Below the pieces are notes generated by a model that was not told the DNA's origin, did no database searches, and saw only the letters and a program-made list of their open reading frames with translations. The position numbers were made by a program, and so were the translations under genes. This document shows positions 2,505 through 11,740 of a stretch of DNA of 26,753 nt, piece by piece (the first letter of the stretch is position 1; every line of letters begins with the position of its first letter). Source of the stretch: a virus; the IMG/VR virus record IMGVR_UViG_3300024243_000075, positions 1-26,753 of that record; one strand, 5' to 3'.

Positions 2505-3728
2505 ATGTCAGCAGAAATACTTCACGTATTATCAGATCAAGATCACTATAATAAATACTCAAGGTTAGTAAGCTCAGGTATATCAGGTAATGAAACACTA
2601 TCAACGATCATCAAGGACATGGGTGTATACTTCCAGTCTCATGATGTCCTTAGTTGGGAAGAGTTCAGTGACTGGTTCACCTTTGTCAGACACCCAGCAC
2701 TGAAGGAGGAGAGGAGAGAAACATATACTAATGTCTTTGATCACATGAACACTGTGACTGAAGAAGACTTACCCTTGCTTGATGACATACTAGAGTCATT
2801 CATCACAAGAGACTATGGCAGGGCACTGCTTGAGCTTGCACATACTATGTCTGATGAGGGGCAGGACAAATCAGCGCAGGTACTGTCATTAACTGATGAG
2901 TTTCAGGATAAGGTAGGGTCAGCCAACAAGCTGAGCAATAACCTAGTGTCTACCCCACTCAGTGACATAGTACAGGGTAAGCTGGAGGGTACAGGCCTGA
3001 GGTGGAGGATGTCATGCCTTAACCGTAGCGTGGGTAGCCTCAGAAGGGGTAACCTAGTGTTGCTTGGTGCTTACGTAGAGACAGGGAAGACCACTGCGTT
3101 ATGTAGTGAAGCTACCTACATGGCTGAGCAATTACCCGCAGACAGACCAGTACTATGGTTTAATAATGAGGAGGCAGGTGATCAAGTCAAGTACAGGATC
3201 ATTCAGTCAAGCCTTGGTTGGATAGACATTAACATGCAGTCCAAGCCAGCGGAGGCAGAAGAGCAGTCATGCTGGGATAAGTTCAGGCTGTACGACAAGG
3301 GTGAGATACACAAGTCTGAGGTGATAGCTATGTGTAAGCAGCTTAACCCAGGGTTAGTTATCTTTGATCAGCTACATAAGATAAGAGGCTTTGAGAATGA
3401 GGGGCGTGACGACATCAGATTGCAGAAGCTTGCAGCCATGGCCCGTGACGTGTGCAAGGAGTACTGCCCTGTTATAGTGATACATCAGGCTGATGCCACC
3501 AGTGTGGGTGTTAAGTATCTTAATAAGAATCAATTCGCAGGTAATAAGGTGACGTTACCAGGTGAGGCTGATGCCATCATCATGATAGGTAAGGAAGAGG
3601 TTCCGGGTAACCAACGGTTCATCTCTGTTTCTAAAAATAAACTTGGCGGGTCAGTGCCTGATGAAAGATATGGCAGGTACGAGGTAACTATCAGACCAGA
3701 GATAGCACGATACGAGGACGTATACTAA
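2505..3728 (+). CDS. Replicative DNA helicase, DnaB/T7 gp4 type, 407 aa
   Basis: This is a hexameric 5'-3' helicase of the RecA-fold, T7 gp4/DnaB type. The ATP site is visible: a Walker A loop AYVETGKT with K195 and T196, catalytic-Glu candidates E222/E223 in WFNNEEAG, Walker B LVIFDQ with D288, and a conserved strand ending in HQ (H327, Q328) that couples ATP hydrolysis to DNA movement. The N-terminal 150 residues are mainly helical and lack primase motifs, in line with primase being the gene before it. The start at ATG 2505 has only a weak ribosome site. The stop overlaps the next ATG by one base (TAATG). It would unwind the fork ahead of the polymerase and recruit the primase. Confidence 0.9.
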   Translation: MSAEILHVLSDQDHYNKYSRLVSSGISGNETLSTIIKDMGVYFQSHDVLSWEEFSDWFTFVRHPALKEERRETYTNVFDHMNTVTEEDLPLLDDILESFITRDYGRALLELAHTMSDEGQDKSAQVLSLTDEFQDKVGSANKLSNNLVSTPLSDIVQGKLEGTGLRWRMSCLNRSVGSLRRGNLVLLGAYVETGKTTALCSEATYMAEQLPADRPVLWFNNEEAGDQVKYRIIQSSLGWIDINMQSKPAEAEEQSCWDKFRLYDKGEIHKSEVIAMCKQLNPGLVIFDQLHKIRGFENEGRDDIRLQKLAAMARDVCKEYCPVIVIHQADATSVGVKYLNKNQFAGNKVTLPGEADAIIMIGKEEVPGNQRFISVSKNKLGGSVPDERYGRYEVTIRPEIARYEDVY

Positions 3729-4465
3729 TGAAAGAAAAGAAATATTATATTAATGAAGATAGCAGGTGCGTAGCACTAAGAGCCTTTGGTAATGTTACTG
3801 AAGGTGACATTGGAGGGTACTTAGAAACAGAAGATAACCTGTCACATGAAGATACATGTTGGGTGTATGGCAGAGCCCAGGTGTATGGCAGAGCCAAGGT
3901 GTATGGCGAAGCCATCGTGTATGGCGAAGCCAAGGTGTCTGGCGAAGCCCAGGTGTATGGCAGAGCCAAGGTGTATGGCGAAGCCCAGGTGTATGGCAGA
4001 GCCATCATGTATGGTGAAGCCAAGGTGTATGGCGAAGCCCAGGTGTATGGCAGAGCCAAGGTGTATGGCGAAGCCAAGGTGTATGGCGAAGCCCAGGTGT
4101 ATGGCTGTGCCATCGTGTATGGCGAAGCCAAGGTGTATGGCGAAGCCATCGTGTATGGCGAAGCCAAGGTGTATGGCTGTGCCATCGTGTATGGCGAAGC
4201 CAAGGTGTATGGCAGAGCCATCGTGTATGGCGAAGCCATCGTGTATGGCGAAGCCCTCAGTACTAAACAAGTTATCAACTTAATAGGTATGAAATACCCA
4301 GTAACTATTACTGATAACCATGTACAGATAGGATGTATTCTTAAGACTAAAGCTGAATGGTTATCCTTAACATACACAGACATCCTTACTCTTGACGGAG
4401 CACAGACAGAGTCCACTTGGAAAGTACTTATGCTATTAATACAGGAGACCACTACTAATGAATAG
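3728..4465 (+). CDS. YdcK-like beta-solenoid hexapeptide-repeat protein, 245 aa
   Basis: The N-terminus (ALRAFGNVTEGDIGGYLETE, then NLSHEDTCW) is the typical cap of YdcK-type beta-solenoid proteins found in many phages. It is followed by 22 consecutive six-residue repeats of the form VYG(E/R/C)A(K/Q/I), residues 46-177, and a non-repetitive C-terminal domain of about 68 residues. Such repeats fold as a left-handed beta helix with three hexads per turn, so this would make about seven turns. The family has no settled function, and no catalytic transferase residues can be read here. The gene overlaps the helicase by one base and the following gene by 8 bases, so it is in the replication operon. 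Its position does not show what it binds. Confidence 0.8.
   Translation: MKEKKYYINEDSRCVALRAFGNVTEGDIGGYLETEDNLSHEDTCWVYGRAQVYGRAKVYGEAIVYGEAKVSGEAQVYGRAKVYGEAQVYGRAIMYGEAKVYGEAQVYGRAKVYGEAKVYGEAQVYGCAIVYGEAKVYGEAIVYGEAKVYGCAIVYGEAKVYGRAIVYGEAIVYGEALSTKQVINLIGMKYPVTITDNHVQIGCILKTKAEWLSLTYTDILTLDGAQTESTWKVLMLLIQETTTNE
3863..4258 (+). repeat. 18-bp tandem repeat, 22 copies, in frame
   Basis: Twenty-two direct 18-base units (consensus GTGTATGGCGAAGCCAAG) run without spacer. Differences fall almost only in codon 4 (GAA, AGA or TGT) and codon 6 (AAG, CAG or ATC). Exceptions are unit 5 (Ser for Tyr), unit 9 (ATG first codon, GGT third) and the last codon (CTC). Near absence of synonymous change suggests recent expansion or gene conversion. 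Because the unit contains no stop in several frames, long false open frames appear over it on both strands. Confidence 0.95.
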
Positions 4466-4637: not shown

Positions 4638-4774
4638 GTGAACAAGTGCCTAAGATCCATAGGACATGTGCAAACTGTGTCCATGTGCGTATCCCAGTGT
4701 GTGCTGCGCCCTGCTGGGATTGTGCAGACAGTAAGGATCTCCCAGACTTTAAGAAGAGGGAAGTAGATGAATAA
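4634..4774 (+). CDS. Cys-rich zinc-binding mini-protein, 46 aa
   Basis: An ATG at 4634 is preceded by AGGAGG and overlaps the previous stop. Its own TAA at 4772-4774 overlaps the polymerase start at 4767. The product has C12-x2-C15, then C27-x2-C30, with Pro before C27 and His two residues after C15, plus an extra C23. This C-x2-C-x11-C-x2-C spacing suggests one zinc knuckle filling most of the protein. The same spacing occurs twice in the N-terminus of the DUF3310 protein at 12077-12676. Coupling to the polymerase suggests a role at the fork or in regulation. This cannot be settled from sequence. Confidence 0.7.
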   Translation: MSEQVPKIHRTCANCVHVRIPVCAAPCWDCADSKDLPDFKKREVDE

Positions 4775-7766
4775 TAATACTTACGTAGTATGTGACCTTG
4801 AAACATCAATAGATAATGATGTGATAGGTGACTTTGGTGGTTCTCCCTGGTACTCAGGTAACAGGGTAGTGCAGTCAGGTTGGTTGTGGGATGATGGGAA
4901 GATACAGGTCATAGACTATAGGGATGACCCATACACAGTAGTGATACCATACGAGACGCTGTTGATAGGCCATAACTTTAAGTTTGATCTTCAGTATTTA
5001 TGGAGAGATAAGGGCTTCAGTGATTGGTTCTGGTCTAACGGGGTGAAGGTATGGGACACCATGGTTGCTCAGTATGTACTGACAGGCCAGCAAGATAAGT
5101 TTGCTTCCCTTAACTATTGCTCTGGTATCTACGGTGGTACTCAGAAGATTGATAAGGTCAAGGAGATGTGGGAGGCAGGTGTAAGGACTGAGGACATAGA
5201 CCCTGACCTCTTACGTGAGTACCTAATAGGTGACTTGAAGAATACTGAGATAGTATACAAGGCACAAGTAAAGGAAGCCGAGAGACTGGGGCTTATGCCC
5301 TTGATCCTCTCCATGCAGGAAGCTACGCTTTGCGCTGGGCACATGGAGTATAACGGCCTGTGCTTTGACAAAGGTGTTGCGCGTGACGCAATGACTCCAC
5401 TCAGGGATAGTATAGTAAGTCTTGAGGAGGACATCATCATGGCCCTGCATGCAGATGACCCTACCCTACCATACATACACATGAACGTAGGCTCTGATGC
5501 TCAGCTCAGTGCAGCATTGTTCGGTGGTGTACTTAAGACAAGGCAGAGAGACTGCATGTATGATGATGACGGGCAGGTCATACTATATAAGGGAGGTAAG
5601 AATGCTGGTAAGCCTAAGACTAAATGGTTCGACATCAAGACTGAGTGTGCTGGTATGGCATCAGTACCTGACAATGCAGAGAAGACTAAGGCAGGTCACT
5701 ACCAGGTAGGTGAGGACATCATCAAGAAGGTTAAGCATCCTGTCATACCATTGGTACTGGCATACAGGGCAGCCAAGAAGGACTTGTCCACATACTATGT
5801 AGGGTACAGCAACATGGCATGGCCTGATGAGCTCAACTCCATGCTTGGTACGATACACCACAAGCTGAACACAGTTGGTACTGAGACAGGCAGACTGTCA
5901 TCATCAACCCCCAACCTACAGAACGTATCAGGTAAGGGAGCTATCAAGGAATGCTTCGTATCTAGATGGGGGAAGGATGGTTCGATACTGCAGGGTGATT
6001 ACTCTCAGCTAGAAATTGTCTACCAGGCATGGGTCAGTGGTGATGAGGCAATGATGCAGGACATACGCGAGGGTATAGACTTTCACTGTGTTGAGGAGAA
6101 CACAGAGATATATACTACTGTTGGCTGGGTTAAAGCGAAGGACATAGACAGGAATATTCATAGAGTATATCACCCAGGTACAGTTGCTGGCTCACTGTCA
6201 CACAGTAGCCCTCAGGATGTTTGGTCTGCTGCAGGTGCTGAATTAGTGTCTGTTCATGGTGACCTTCATGACGAGCTGGTATCTAAGCAACACAGTATCT
6301 ATCTTGATGGACGCAGACAACCAGTGTCTGAATTTGTAGGCACTAAGCTAAACCAGACAAGGTTTATGAACTCATGGGGAGGGGCTTGTAACAGTGTATT
6401 ATCTGACGATCATATACGACTACTGATCTGGGCTATATGTGATGCGCACATGTTCAAGAGATGTGGCACACAGAAGATTAACGGTGTTCGATGGAAGCTA
6501 TCAAAACCAAGGAAGATAGCAGCGCTAACGGAACTATTGGAACGTATGAAAATACCATACAAGGTCAACGCATGCCCGAAGACGGGGCTTAATAAGCTGC
6601 AGCCACAGTTCATCATTGTCTATGGTGAGTGGCAGGACTGGTTGTTTAATAAGATAGGGTTTGCTAAGTCATGGCCTACTCTACTCATGGACTGTGATAA
6701 GAGGCAGGCCAGTATTATCTATGACACCCTGGCTATAACGGATGGGTGCATAAAAGATAAACACCTTGTATGGACAACAACAGATCTTGCAGGTGCTAAC
6801 ATTGTATGTGATATGTTTAGAAGGTGTGGTATAGCATGCAAGACTACCAGTTACAAACGTATCAGTAACTTTAACAGCACTAAGGCTACTATAACTATGA
6901 CTGCATACCCACAGGTATATGATAGGAGGCATGTGAAAGTCACTGACACTGGAGAAACAGGCACTGTTGTTGGTATAACAACACTGACAGGTACATTAAT
7001 AACAAGGAGGAACGGCAAGGCACAGGTTACAGGTAACTGTAAGAGACTGGCATACAAGACAGGTGAGGAGTATGACTACATAGTAGACATGGTTAAGGTT
7101 AAGGAAGACCCAGCCTACGTTAAGGCAAGGAAGGGGATCAAGATGGTATCATTCCAGAAGTCTTACGGTGCTGGTATCAAGAAGGTTAGTGAGACAACAG
7201 GCATACCACGCAAGGAAGTGAAGGCTATCTTTGAGGCAGAGGATAGGATGTACAGTGGTGTTGTTACATACAATGAGCTGGTACATGCTGAGGTTATGGC
7301 ATCGTCCAGGCCTACGGATAAGCATTCGTTCCTCGGGTATCCTATCCGTAGGGGGCAACAGCTTAGTGTTACTGGACGGAGGTATACATTCTGGGAGGAT
7401 GATGCACCACAATTCATGAGAGATAAGGGGGAGATGGTAAGCTTCAGCCCTACCAAGCTGAAGAATTTTAGTATACAGGGTGGGGCCACTGGTGATATAG
7501 TTCCGCTGGCCTTAGGTATGTTGGTACGTAGGTTTAATACTGACCCAATTCTTATTGACAAAGCTTTACTTATCAATACCATACATGACTCAGTTATGGT
7601 AGACTGTCATGACTCGGTGAAGGAGTATGCAGGACAGGTGTTGAAGGAAGTGATGGAGGATGTACGGGCAGAGATGAAGAAGCAGTGGGGTTTAGACTTT
7701 GATCTCCCACTTAATGTAGATGTAGAGGGAGGAAAATCATGGGGAAGTATGAAGACCATAGCGTGA
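4767..7766 (+). CDS. Family A DNA polymerase (T7 gp5-like) with in-frame intein, 999 aa
   Basis: This replicates the phage genome. The N-terminal 3'-5' proofreading exonuclease has its three motifs: D10/E12 (CDLET), D74 (GHNFKFD), and Y152 with D156 (YLIGD). The polymerase domain has motif A with D411 (GDYSQLE), the O helix with R788, K792, F796 and Y800 (RKGIKMVSFQKSYG), and motif C H940-D941 (IHDS). F796 aligns with T7 Tyr526, so unlike T7 it carries the Phe typical of polymerases that discriminate against dideoxynucleotides. Residues 441-757 are an intein inserted between motif A and the O helix. Without it the enzyme is 682 residues, close to T7 gp5 (704). Splicing is probably required for activity, because the insert splits the active-site domain. 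The start at ATG 4767 has GAGGGA upstream. Confidence 0.95.
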   Translation: MNNNTYVVCDLETSIDNDVIGDFGGSPWYSGNRVVQSGWLWDDGKIQVIDYRDDPYTVVIPYETLLIGHNFKFDLQYLWRDKGFSDWFWSNGVKVWDTMVAQYVLTGQQDKFASLNYCSGIYGGTQKIDKVKEMWEAGVRTEDIDPDLLREYLIGDLKNTEIVYKAQVKEAERLGLMPLILSMQEATLCAGHMEYNGLCFDKGVARDAMTPLRDSIVSLEEDIIMALHADDPTLPYIHMNVGSDAQLSAALFGGVLKTRQRDCMYDDDGQVILYKGGKNAGKPKTKWFDIKTECAGMASVPDNAEKTKAGHYQVGEDIIKKVKHPVIPLVLAYRAAKKDLSTYYVGYSNMAWPDELNSMLGTIHHKLNTVGTETGRLSSSTPNLQNVSGKGAIKECFVSRWGKDGSILQGDYSQLEIVYQAWVSGDEAMMQDIREGIDFHCVEENTEIYTTVGWVKAKDIDRNIHRVYHPGTVAGSLSHSSPQDVWSAAGAELVSVHGDLHDELVSKQHSIYLDGRRQPVSEFVGTKLNQTRFMNSWGGACNSVLSDDHIRLLIWAICDAHMFKRCGTQKINGVRWKLSKPRKIAALTELLERMKIPYKVNACPKTGLNKLQPQFIIVYGEWQDWLFNKIGFAKSWPTLLMDCDKRQASIIYDTLAITDGCIKDKHLVWTTTDLAGANIVCDMFRRCGIACKTTSYKRISNFNSTKATITMTAYPQVYDRRHVKVTDTGETGTVVGITTLTGTLITRRNGKAQVTGNCKRLAYKTGEEYDYIVDMVKVKEDPAYVKARKGIKMVSFQKSYGAGIKKVSETTGIPRKEVKAIFEAEDRMYSGVVTYNELVHAEVMASSRPTDKHSFLGYPIRRGQQLSVTGRRYTFWEDDAPQFMRDKGEMVSFSPTKLKNFSIQGGATGDIVPLALGMLVRRFNTDPILIDKALLINTIHDSVMVDCHDSVKEYAGQVLKEVMEDVRAEMKKQWGLDFDLPLNVDVEGGKSWGSMKTIA
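6087..7037 (+). mobile_element. Intein with LAGLIDADG-like endonuclease domain in DNA polymerase
   Basis: A 317-residue insert (polymerase residues 441-757) has intein boundaries. It starts with Cys441 in CVEENTEIYTTVGWVKAKDI, a classic N-terminal splicing block. A block-B-like SKQH with H509 follows, and it ends in TLITRRNGKAQVTGN immediately before Cys758, the +1 nucleophile. The penultimate residue is Gly rather than the usual His, a known variation in some inteins. Two endonuclease-like helices (LLIWAICDAH with D559 and YDTLAITDG with D659) lie 100 residues apart, as expected for a single-chain LAGLIDADG homing enzyme, although both motifs are divergent. The exteins rejoin as DFH-CKRLAYKTG. 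Base composition is like its surroundings, so the insertion does not look recent. Confidence 0.9.
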
Positions 7767-8136: not shown

Positions 8137-8688
8137 ATGGCTATTGAATCAGTTGACGGACAAGAACGAGTACAATGGGGCACATTGGTAATGCAGGACA
8201 CTGCCACTGCCTGTGAGAAGAAGGATGGTGGTACATACCCAGGTGCAGAAATCCTGTGGAAGTTTCATGGGCAGGGTAAGGCACAGACAACATGTGTGCA
8301 TGAGAAAGTCTTTGGTAATATCATTGGTGCTAAGGCAGTCATTGAAGGACTTGAGAAGGGTGATGAGTTCTGTATGCTGCAAGTAAAGTCAGGTGACTAC
8401 TGGAACATCAAGGAGTTTGCTGCAGGCAGAGATACACTTCAGGCTGCTGGTGTTGCTGCCCCTGCTGCTACTGGTAACACTAGTAACTCAGGCTATCGTA
8501 GAGGAGAATTTCCAGTGCCACCTACTGACATGGGACATTCTATATGCAGACAGAATGCTTTAGGGCATGCTATCAGTGTGATTAAGATGACTGAATCACA
8601 TGCTGATAAGTCTGCAAGTGAGGTGGTACAGCTAACCATTAACATTGCAAGAGAGTTCGCTGCCTTCACTACTGGTAACGAGGGGTAA
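8137..8688 (+). CDS. Probable single-stranded DNA-binding protein, 183 aa
   Basis: An ATG at 8137 has GAGGA upstream. The first 95 residues look like an OB-fold: alternating strands (ILWKFHGQGKAQTTCVHEKV and EFCMLQVKSGDYWNIKEF) with aromatic and basic residues suited to stacking on ssDNA. An Ala-rich linker (about 100-118) leads to a helical C-terminal domain beginning SICRQNALGHAISVIK. The gene lies between the polymerase and the exonuclease, where podoviruses commonly carry gp2.5-like SSB. It does not end in the acidic aromatic tip of classical SSB. It would coat the displaced strand and protect it from nucleases. Assignment is by fold pattern and place and is not certain. Confidence 0.6.
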   Translation: MAIESVDGQERVQWGTLVMQDTATACEKKDGGTYPGAEILWKFHGQGKAQTTCVHEKVFGNIIGAKAVIEGLEKGDEFCMLQVKSGDYWNIKEFAAGRDTLQAAGVAAPAATGNTSNSGYRRGEFPVPPTDMGHSICRQNALGHAISVIKMTESHADKSASEVVQLTINIAREFAAFTTGNEG

Positions 8689-8695
8689 CTGCAGC

Positions 8696-9145
8696 ATGGT
8701 AAGATTGAAGGGGTATCCTAACTATTCTATAGACTGCTCAGGTAAAGTGTACTCACATACAAGGGACATATACCTGAAGCAATGTCTTAGTAATAAGGGA
8801 TACCCTGTAGTCTACCTACGTGCTAACGGAGAGTCACATACTCTCCCTGTACACAGACTAGTGGCTCTTACATTCCTGCCAGGAGACAGCACATTGACTG
8901 TTAATCATATCAACTGTGATAAGACTGACAACAGGGTGGAGAATCTTGAATGGTTAAGTAGAGGAGATAACAATGCACTTGATAAGCAGAAGGACTACCT
9001 ATTGTATGACCCTGATGGAGACACAGTACTAGTCAGGAATCTTAGGCAGTTCTGCGCTTCAGTGTCACTCAACTATAAAAGTATGCACAATGCAATGACA
9101 AAAGACAGTGAGTACTTAGGGTGGCAATGCTTTAAATACTCCTAA
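8696..9145 (+). CDS. NUMOD4-HNH homing endonuclease with NUMOD1-like tail, 149 aa
   Basis: I start this at ATG 8696 (GAGGGG upstream), just after the SSB stop. The frame could run back to 8645 but would then overlap SSB without reason. Residues 4-20 (GYPNYSIDCSGKVYS) form a NUMOD4 DNA-binding motif. The HNH nuclease has the catalytic set VHRLVALTFLPG, then VNHINCDKTDNRVENLEW, with His, Asn-His and Asn all present. The last 40 residues (NLRQFCASVSLNY to LGWQCFK) look like a NUMOD1 helix-turn-helix that helps read the target. This is a free-standing homing endonuclease, probably a selfish insert beside replication genes, and it appears intact. A terminator follows immediately. Confidence 0.88.
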   Translation: MVRLKGYPNYSIDCSGKVYSHTRDIYLKQCLSNKGYPVVYLRANGESHTLPVHRLVALTFLPGDSTLTVNHINCDKTDNRVENLEWLSRGDNNALDKQKDYLLYDPDGDTVLVRNLRQFCASVSLNYKSMHNAMTKDSEYLGWQCFKYS

Positions 9146-9358: not shown

Positions 9359-10234
9359 ATGCTAGCACTAATAGATGGCGATGTTTGTTTATACCAAGTT
9401 GGCTTTGCTGTTCAGAAGAAACACTGGATGGTTGGTGATCTGCAGGCAGACACTAAGTCAGAGATGAAAAGACTTGCAGAGCAGCTTGCCACACCGTTAG
9501 AGGATGTTAAGGAAGTCATTGAGGTAGACCCTATCTCACATGCACTGCACTCTGTTAAGTCTATGGCTGAGCGTATCATGAATGAGGCAGGATGCTCAGA
9601 CAAGAGGATCTTCCTGACTGGTTCAGCTAACTTCAGAGTTGATCTATTCCCTGAGTATAAGGCAAATAGAAAGGATACACCCAAGCCTGTACTGTACGAA
9701 GAGATACGTCAGTACATGATTGAACACATGGGTGCTGAGGAAATACATGGGCAGGAGGCAGACGATGAACTGGGTATACAACAGTGCGAAGACACAGTTA
9801 TATGTACTATAGACAAAGACTTACTGATGATTGAGGGACAGCATTACAACTGGCGTAAGCCTGACCAAGGTGTGGTTACAGTGACGAGGGAGGAAGGGTT
9901 ACATTGGTTCTACCAACAGCTATTGATGGGTGATTCTGTTGATAATATCCCAGGACTTAAGGGTATTGGGCCAAAGAAAGCTGAGAAGATACTGTCTCAT
10001 CTTATCGGTGCTACCAAGGCAGAGTATGATGAGGAAATACTTGCTCAATACAAGGCCCACCCACACTATAAAGACTTGACTGATCAGTCAACTATTGATA
10101 CAATTAACTTACATGCAAACCTCCTATTGATACGCACTGAAGAGGATCAAGATCTATGGAAGTTGACAGAGGACACTGGGCACTTGGCCTTACCCCAGAC
10201 CCAGACAAGTACTTCGGTTTCGTCTACCTTATAG
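9359..10234 (+). CDS. 5'-3' exonuclease, FEN/T7 gp6 type, 291 aa
   Basis: This is a metal-dependent flap or 5'-3' exonuclease that removes RNA primers and can degrade host DNA. An ATG at 9359 has AAAGGAG upstream. The metal-binding acids are visible in order: D6 and D8 (LIDGD), EYKANRK (the helical arch Arg/Lys), GQEADDE, ICTIDKDLL, and GDSVDNIPGLKGIGPKKA, the last being the helix-hairpin-helix that grips duplex DNA. Length is normal for the family. The last 26 codons overlap the next gene in another frame, and the C-terminal residues (about 270 on, Thr/Ser-rich) look like an unconserved extension, as if the overlapping gene was inserted at its end. Confidence 0.9.
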   Translation: MLALIDGDVCLYQVGFAVQKKHWMVGDLQADTKSEMKRLAEQLATPLEDVKEVIEVDPISHALHSVKSMAERIMNEAGCSDKRIFLTGSANFRVDLFPEYKANRKDTPKPVLYEEIRQYMIEHMGAEEIHGQEADDELGIQQCEDTVICTIDKDLLMIEGQHYNWRKPDQGVVTVTREEGLHWFYQQLLMGDSVDNIPGLKGIGPKKAEKILSHLIGATKAEYDEEILAQYKAHPHYKDLTDQSTIDTINLHANLLLIRTEEDQDLWKLTEDTGHLALPQTQTSTSVSSTL

Positions 10235-10602
10235 AGAACATCACGACAGGGGAAAGGTACATAGGTAAGAAACAGTACTGCTTCAAGCGTATGGTGAGGC
10301 AGGCAGGTAAGAAGAGAAGAAGATCTACCTCATCCCCGTCAGGATGGGAGAGATACACAGGCAGTAGCGCACATGTTAATGCAGCCATTGCTGAACAAGG
10401 CATTAAGGCATTCACATTCACTGTACTGTCTCAGCACACAGGCAAGGGAGACCTGAGGTACGCAGAGTTCATGGAGCAAGTGCTTAGAAGAACACTCACG
10501 GATAATACTTATTATAACAGACAGTACGAGGCTATCAGGTATATACCTAAGTGTGATCCTGATAACGAGTACCACTACCTCGCTGTCTACAAGGGTGACT
10601 AA
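10156..10602 (+). CDS. GIY-YIG nuclease-like protein, 148 aa
   Basis: The N-terminal core reads FGFVYLIENITTGERYIGKK, a GIY-YIG variant (VYL...YIG) that carries the nuclease's Tyr residues. A Lys/Arg-rich stretch, W-x2-YTGSS, and a Glu in AEFMEQ followed by YYNRQY match the layout of phage Seg-like GIY-YIG endonucleases. The start at ATG 10156 makes a 79-base overlap with the exonuclease. No later in-frame Met lies before the core, so this start is the only reasonable one. It probably cuts DNA as a mobile element or in host DNA breakdown. The Arg of the catalytic helix is not clear to me, so activity is unproven. Confidence 0.75.
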   Translation: MEVDRGHWALGLTPDPDKYFGFVYLIENITTGERYIGKKQYCFKRMVRQAGKKRRRSTSSPSGWERYTGSSAHVNAAIAEQGIKAFTFTVLSQHTGKGDLRYAEFMEQVLRRTLTDNTYYNRQYEAIRYIPKCDPDNEYHYLAVYKGD

Positions 10603-11391
10603 ATGAACAATGAATTAGTATTAGTAGTAGGCGATTGCCATGTCAGTAACAACCAGTCCTTGGATAGATTCAGGTGGTTGGGTAAGCTGATTGCAGAGAC
10701 AAGACCTGATCATATAGTATTGATTGGTGACTTCCTCACTCTCAATTCCTTGTCAGCATGGGACAGGAACAAGAGAATGAACATGGAGAACAAGAGATAC
10801 TTCCTTGAGATAGATGCAGGCAGGGAAGCACTGTCCTTACTACAGCATGACATGACCATGCTACGTGCAAGACAGAAGCTTAATAAGAAGAGGTTATACA
10901 ACCCATCATTAGTATACGTAGAGGGCAACCATGAAGATAGACTCACACGATACCTGGAGACAGACCCTACATTCGATGGCCACGTTTCTGTGCAGAAAGA
11001 CTTACACTTGGCTGAAGATAACTGGGTGTGGGTGCCTTACAGGTCTTCTCATAGCATACGTGGTATTGACTTTACACACGTTCCTCACAACAAAGCCAAG
11101 CCAATCACAGGTATGGACATCAACAAGAAGTGTAGTGACGTCACTATCAACTCCACAGTATATGGACATACACATGAAGCACACTTTTCCAACCATAGAA
11201 GGCACGGACAGAACACTAATCAGCACGTTCTGAACTGTGGTTGTTTCTTCCCTGAAGATCAGGACGAGGACTACTGTGACGGGAGGATAAAGAACTACTG
11301 GAGAGGTGTCATGTTAATGGACATCTATGATCAGGGTATGTTCGACATCAGCACTGTAAGCATGACCTCATTGGAGAATAACTATGGATGA
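10603..11391 (+). CDS. Calcineurin-like metallophosphoesterase, 262 aa
   Basis: All family motifs are present: D11 and H13 in VVGDCH, D43 in IVLIGDF, GNHED with its catalytic Asn-His (residues about 107-111), and a C-terminal YGHTHEAHF. These bind two metal ions and hydrolyse phosphoester bonds. Substrates in the superfamily range from nucleic acids and cyclic nucleotides to phosphoproteins, so the substrate cannot be named. The gene starts right after the GIY-YIG gene and overlaps the NUMOD4 gene by 8 bases. Its neighbours suggest a role in nucleic-acid processing, possibly a nuclease or 2',3'-cyclic phosphodiesterase. It is full length, with no signal peptide, so it is cytoplasmic. Confidence 0.88.
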   Translation: MNNELVLVVGDCHVSNNQSLDRFRWLGKLIAETRPDHIVLIGDFLTLNSLSAWDRNKRMNMENKRYFLEIDAGREALSLLQHDMTMLRARQKLNKKRLYNPSLVYVEGNHEDRLTRYLETDPTFDGHVSVQKDLHLAEDNWVWVPYRSSHSIRGIDFTHVPHNKAKPITGMDINKKCSDVTINSTVYGHTHEAHFSNHRRHGQNTNQHVLNCGCFFPEDQDEDYCDGRIKNYWRGVMLMDIYDQGMFDISTVSMTSLENNYG

Positions 11392-11740
11392 TTCATTGTG
11401 GGTACAAGTACCAGACTTCCCTAACTACCTGATACACCCTGACGGACACATCAGACATGTCCTGACAGAGAAGTATATGAAACATAACTCAGCAGATCAC
11501 AGGGTTCAGTTGATAGCAGGTAACAGGAGAAGAACTGTTAAGCTTCATAGGTTGATGGCGCAGACCTTCAAGGTTGAGGGTGAGGGACGTACAGTAGGGT
11601 ACAGGGACAGAGACACAAGGAACATAGCTGCCTCCAATCTGTACTGGATGCACAGGCCATACGGAGAGAGACGGGAAGAGGAAGAGACAGATGAGACACG
11701 TCTGTTCAATAAGTTTAAAGGTCTTGGGGGAATAATCTAG
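11384..11740 (+). CDS. NUMOD4 protein with degenerate HNH core, 118 aa
   Basis: An ATG at 11384 overlaps the phosphoesterase stop by 8 bases. The product starts with a NUMOD4 motif (VPDFPNYLIHPDGHI), and KLHRLMAQTFKV aligns with the first HNH strand and its His. The next block, VGYRDRDTRNIAASNLYW, replaces the usual VNHIDGDKTNN-x-ENLEW: the central Asn-His has become Gly-Tyr, while the final Asn remains. The nuclease is therefore probably inactive or altered. It may be a decayed homing endonuclease or one kept as a DNA-binding protein. There is no frameshift, so the gene is maintained as an open frame. Compare the intact relative at 8696-9145. Confidence 0.75.
   Translation: MDDSLWVQVPDFPNYLIHPDGHIRHVLTEKYMKHNSADHRVQLIAGNRRRTVKLHRLMAQTFKVEGEGRTVGYRDRDTRNIAASNLYWMHRPYGERREEEETDETRLFNKFKGLGGII

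Follow-up and report, generated by a model that had tools for sequence, protein, structure and literature searches.

An intein was identified by sequence alignment in the family A DNA polymerase gene of a tailed phage, where positions 6087-7037 of the window encode a 317-residue intein of class 1 type between His440 and Cys758. The window, i.e., the whole stretch of DNA analyzed here, is a 26,753-nt genome fragment (an IMG/VR virus record) of a phage with bacteria as host, and carries primase-like, DnaB-like helicase, family A DNA polymerase, exonuclease and virion genes. The explanation that we favor as a whole, at a probability of about 94%, is a class-1-type intein with a LAGLIDADG homing-nuclease domain, placed in the polymerase past motif A and ahead of the O helix, which would splice; its lineage probably moved there from a metallophosphoesterase gene. 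The explanation has direct support in the exact insertion, all four splicing blocks, the family membership, the predicted fold, the catalytic residues and the nesting among phosphoesterase inteins. The features concerned are listed below.

4767-7766, + strand: polymerase ORF, 999 aa (Pfam DNA_pol_A E 1.2e-41; phrog_17 E 1.2e-97)
4767..6086, + strand: N-extein, 3'-5' exonuclease-like region and polymerase through motif A and DFH440 (Pfam, phrog, alignment)
6087..7037, + strand: intein with LAGLIDADG endonuclease domain, 317 aa, Cys1-Asn317 (insertion, relatives, AF2 model)
6087..6380, end approximate, + strand: splicing region at the N terminus, with C1 in block A and S66xxH69 in block B (alignment, residue census, model strands)
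6381..6920, limits approximate, + strand: LAGLIDADG homing-endonuclease domain (Pfam, helices, census, I-DmoI structural matches)
6441-6443, + strand: candidate catalytic Asp D119, at the end of LAGLIDADG helix 107-119
6741-6743, + strand: candidate catalytic Asp D219, LAGLIDADG helix 205-217
6921..7037, + strand: splicing region at the C terminus, with blocks F and G; it ends in ITRRNGKAQVTGN (alignment, residue census)
7038..7763, + strand: C-extein, which begins with Cys+1 and holds the O helix (RxxxKxxxFxxxYG) plus the remaining polymerase fingers and palm (alignment with intein-free homologues)
10603..11391, + strand: metallophosphoesterase gene of this phage, with EGNHEDRLTRY and no intein (phrog_221 E 2.6e-32)

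Exact insertion into the polymerase

When the polymerase was aligned with three intein-free phage polymerases (L008, L009, L010), the insert comprised exactly residues 441-757, directly after an invariant DFH, and where the window continues with CKR these polymerases had CKR, IKR or CMR. The polymerase of phage MedPE-SWcel-C56 was uninterrupted and reads DFHCKRVALK. The site was also uninterrupted in all 52 collected IMG/VR polymerase homologues that were unambiguously readable through it, the His and the YG motif being 34 to 50 residues apart. Since a Cys follows the His in all 52, the +1 Cys is the host protein's own residue. The alignment and these homologues rule out that the insert is a normal part of the polymerase. 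The O helix was unbroken 3' of the insert (R788, K792, F796, Y800-G801), so that the insert follows motif A (DYSQLE) and precedes this helix. The computed length of the polymerase after splicing is 682 aa (999-317). Besides the window, just two contigs were seen to carry an interrupted copy, and the intein sequence is identical and the frame intact in all three. The G+C content of the intein was 0.437, as against 0.46-0.47 for the exteins, and its codon score lay near the range seen for the remaining genes; together these are a weak sign of foreign origin.

The sequence-only reading had placed an intein at 6087-7037, right after DFH, past motif A and ahead of the O helix, and had named Cys1, a block B His, a terminal Gly-Asn and a Cys+1 as its splicing residues. 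Residue checks located D438-F439-H440, C441, H509, D559, D659, G756-N757 and C758-K759 in the precursor, corresponding within the intein to C1, S66-x-x-H69 (block B), D119, D219, G316 and N317. The call and its boundaries agree with the exact insertion, the full-length relatives and the fold match described below, the position with the alignment and the intact O helix, and the residues with the alignment and the family census. The proposed comparison with intein-free homologues confirmed the boundary, and the segment was absent from 52/52 readable polymerases.

Genome setting

A second contig (L004) differed from the window in four bases, all at 920-946 among small overlapping ORFs (919-947), and was identical over the rest of the compared stretch. 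Two HNH endonuclease-like genes (8645-9145 and 11384-11740) and one homing-endonuclease-like gene (10156-10602) give the replication region several mobile nucleases besides the intein. The homing-endonuclease-like gene and the end of the exonuclease ORF overlap; judged by eye, this gene is of GIY-YIG type. At 3728-4465, a gene of 245 aa contains a repeat array (3862-4255) in which an 18-base unit, GGTGTATGGCGAAGCCAA, coding for the six residues VYGEAK, recurs in tandem about 22 times. Both strands carry long ORFs open through the repeats, and the gene resembles the phage repeat families phrog_5070 and phrog_7964 (function unknown).

The best annotated relatives of the polymerase, at 38-39% identity, were those of ICP2-like Vibrio phages. 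In ICP2-type phages, the polymerase is broken at a different conserved place (after SAPNLQNISN in L007). The RefSeq record of ICP2 annotates it as two joined pieces flanking an ORF named HNH endonuclease, and that of Rostov-5342 is annotated as two separate ORFs. The interrupted regions examined (L151:1459-4027 and L007:1459-3552) gave no Rfam family match.

Family membership and splicing residues

Two phage protein segments matched the intein end to end in tblastn searches: one of 315 residues from Rheinheimera Barba phages (28% identity, E 1e-22) and one of 318 residues from Klebsiella phage fENko-Kae01 (30% identity, E 8e-19). Both sit in metallophosphoesterases directly after GNH, and end in TGN followed by Cys. 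With the end-to-end structural matches given below, the full-length E value of 1e-22 puts the relation to phage inteins far beyond chance. The conserved splicing blocks were A (C1..T6..T10..GW), B (S66xxH69) and G (G316-N317). In a census of 61 full-length family members, Asn317 and the block B His were present in 61/61 and Cys1 in 60/61, while the LAGLIDADG aspartates D219 and D119 were present in 59/61 and 49/61, respectively. At position 4 of block F, the window intein has Gly and 52/61 relatives have Cys; in its close relatives this residue is Gly, Ala or Ser. No relatives were found among plasmids or, with one peptide pattern, in bacterial genome contigs.

A penultimate His is usual in class 1 inteins, but is not essential and hence not defining. 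The window intein has the other marks of this class, namely Cys1, the block B S66xxH69, the C-terminal N317 and Cys+1, with Gly316 in place of the His. The hallmark of class 3 inteins is a triplet of W(B12), C(F4) and T(G5). A class 3 mechanism was ruled out for the window intein, which has I71, G296 and T315, and thus not the full triplet, and which has Cys1. The two signatures are united in a polymerase intein of the gut phage DP SC_2_H4_2017 (L011:3001-4023), which has Cys1 together with Trp B12, Cys F4 and Thr G5; a further intein seems to lie upstream in that polymerase.

The absence of the penultimate His had been linked to slowed or altered Asn cyclization in other inteins; the suggestion that it slows or alters splicing here found no support. 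Gly occupied this position in 56/61 members collected, a figure biased upward because that Gly was part of one of the two patterns used for the census; it was also present in members from the scan whose patterns left the Gly out. In the mycobacteriophage RDF intein, which resides in a phosphoesterase-like protein, splicing was complete with the native Gly316, whereas the G316H variant needed more than 5 h to reach ~50% splicing (PMC5050341). Lack of this His thus characterizes the family and does not point to impairment.

Comparison with known inteins showed the window intein to be well-formed and an ordinary representative of a large family of phage inteins. The nearest relatives, with 27-33% identity over the full length, were those of Rheinheimera Barba phages (L006), fENko-Kae01 (L005) and three IMG/VR records (L015, L157, L158). 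They share its C-terminal ITRxxGKxxxTGN block and Gly-Asn end, but differ in their phosphoesterase host and in insertion after GNH or GNHE, several with Ser+1 one codon further. The RDF type (Bethlehem gp51; PMC5050341) shares Cys1, Gly316 and Asn317 and adjoins GNH[DE], but has a phosphoesterase-like host and Ser+1; splicing has been shown for the Bethlehem intein. For sequence comparison, Bethlehem was represented by the homologous phosphoesterase of phage MaryBeth (L150), whose intein has the same length of 317 residues but sits on a long branch and is not part of the 14-row clade to which the window intein belongs (see below). Among polymerase inteins, that of a vequintavirus (L012) has the same family A polymerase position (D-x-H followed by C) and a Gly-Asn end, but is a separate lineage at 23% identity. 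The intein of Lactococcus phage KSY1 (L013) also resides in a phage family A polymerase and ends in Gly-Asn, but sits at another site (KA followed by C) and has lost the nuclease aspartates.

Predicted fold and nuclease domain

The AlphaFold2 model of the intein had a mean pLDDT of 92.6. VIA-align comparison over residues 1-317 gave Z scores of 21.8 for the TliVMA intein-endonuclease and ~19.5 for PI-SceI and PI-PfuI, and ~15 for mini-inteins such as gp41-1 and NrdJ-1; the predicted structure thus has the Hint fold. Two LAGLIDADG helices (107-119 and 205-217) were found with D119 and D219, and the structural matches included PI-SceI and I-DmoI. The Pfam LAGLIDADG_3 profile scored below threshold in the window intein (E 0.013) and reached E 5.9e-8 in a close relative. 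Alignment and census agree with the earlier observation that both aspartates (D559 and D659 of the precursor) are kept. Their surroundings, described as divergent, are so relative to the textbook motif, motif 1 being CDAH and not DG; they are not relative to the family, since Asp-Ala is common to several close phosphoesterase inteins. Within the same clade, the phosphoesterase intein L157:4001-4954 offers a decayed contrast, with Ser1 in place of Cys1 and both LAGLIDADG aspartates gone.

Phylogeny and probable change of host gene

Relatives of the intein were gathered by two scans, their flanks were read, and a tree of 57 intein sequences was built. The nearest relatives in the scans were phosphoesterase inteins, inserted at GNH or one codon after. 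The window intein fell into a 14-row clade (support 100/100) whose other 13 rows were all phosphoesterase inteins, and was nested within it (97/82 and 99/95). With the nearest relatives in an unrelated gene, the lineage has probably moved between genes, and the simplest reading of the tree is a move from phosphoesterase to polymerase, the direction being given by the nesting of a window row on a long branch (1.55). Forcing the phosphoesterase rows into a clade without the window was weakly rejected (p-AU 0.04), this group having been chosen once the first tree was known. Such a change of host gene is interesting, yet not unprecedented.

The intein-free metallophosphoesterase gene at 10603..11391 is of the kind that hosts the nearest relatives. 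At odds only slightly better than even, a lineage specialized on GNH in metallophosphoesterases moved, possibly within one phage carrying both genes, to the polymerase site D-F-H before C, and so converged on a position that another lineage had reached independently. In 30-base windows anchored at the His codon, the DNA of the polymerase site showed no convincing excess of similarity to that of phosphoesterase sites, and the site in the phage's own phosphoesterase gene was likewise no more similar to it than expected from background His codons. The best site matches (L006 and L158) had 13-14 of 30 identities, which 6/82 background His codons also reached; site likeness therefore does not explain the move.

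Proposed mechanism and alternative explanations

Family and residues make class-1-type splicing followed by nuclease homing the most likely mechanism. After translation, Cys1 would take over the peptide bond following His440 in an N-S acyl shift, Cys758 would attack the bond held by Cys1, and cyclization of Asn757 would release the 317-residue intein, leaving the exteins joined as DFH-CKR in a 682-aa polymerase. The unspliced precursor would presumably be inactive as a polymerase. In co-infecting phages, the putatively active endonuclease domain, which retains both metal-binding Asp residues, would cut the intein-free target copy, and repair would copy the intein in.

Because other inteins of family A polymerases are likewise inserted after D-x-H, the window intein might have been inherited along polymerases, as kin of the inteins of vequintavirus L012 and of L031 and L044, and is no newcomer from a phosphoesterase. 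This is extremely unlikely: constraining these four inteins to a clade cost 76 log-likelihood units (p-AU 5e-5), by which common vertical descent was rejected under the model used, the 13 closest relatives are all phosphoesterase inteins, and 52 related polymerases are without intein. It is also unlikely, if less starkly so, that the intein can splice but its endonuclease is dead, so that homing is over and the element is inherited with the polymerase. The CDAH motif and the LAGLIDADG_3 score below the Pfam cut-off would fit such decay, which is known from the KSY1 and L157 inteins, where both aspartates are lost. D119 and D219 are, however, kept in the window intein, Asp-Ala in motif 1 recurs in other close relatives, the domain was modeled with high confidence and the frame is intact in three contigs.

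Splicing might further act as a regulated switch that controls phage replication, given that an essential enzyme is split beside its active site; a mycobacterial DnaB intein is reported to splice in a manner that depends on the environment (PMC6195587). We consider this very improbable, since nothing in the present evidence points to conditional splicing and a phage intein ending in Gly can splice to completion (PMC5050341). Conserved active-site regions are the usual insertion place of inteins (PMC2814812; PMC5050341), where imprecise loss would harm the host protein (PMC2814812), and this preference explains the polymerase position without regulation.

For the Gly-Asn phage family, a class-1-type intein with a LAGLIDADG nuclease at this site adds a clean polymerase member, in which phylogeny separates the intein lineage from its host gene. 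The case argues against reading Gly-Asn ends as those of crippled inteins. Should the lineage really have moved from a phosphoesterase to the polymerase, ectopic intein spread would become open to test, for instance by asking whether the nuclease still cuts both kinds of site.
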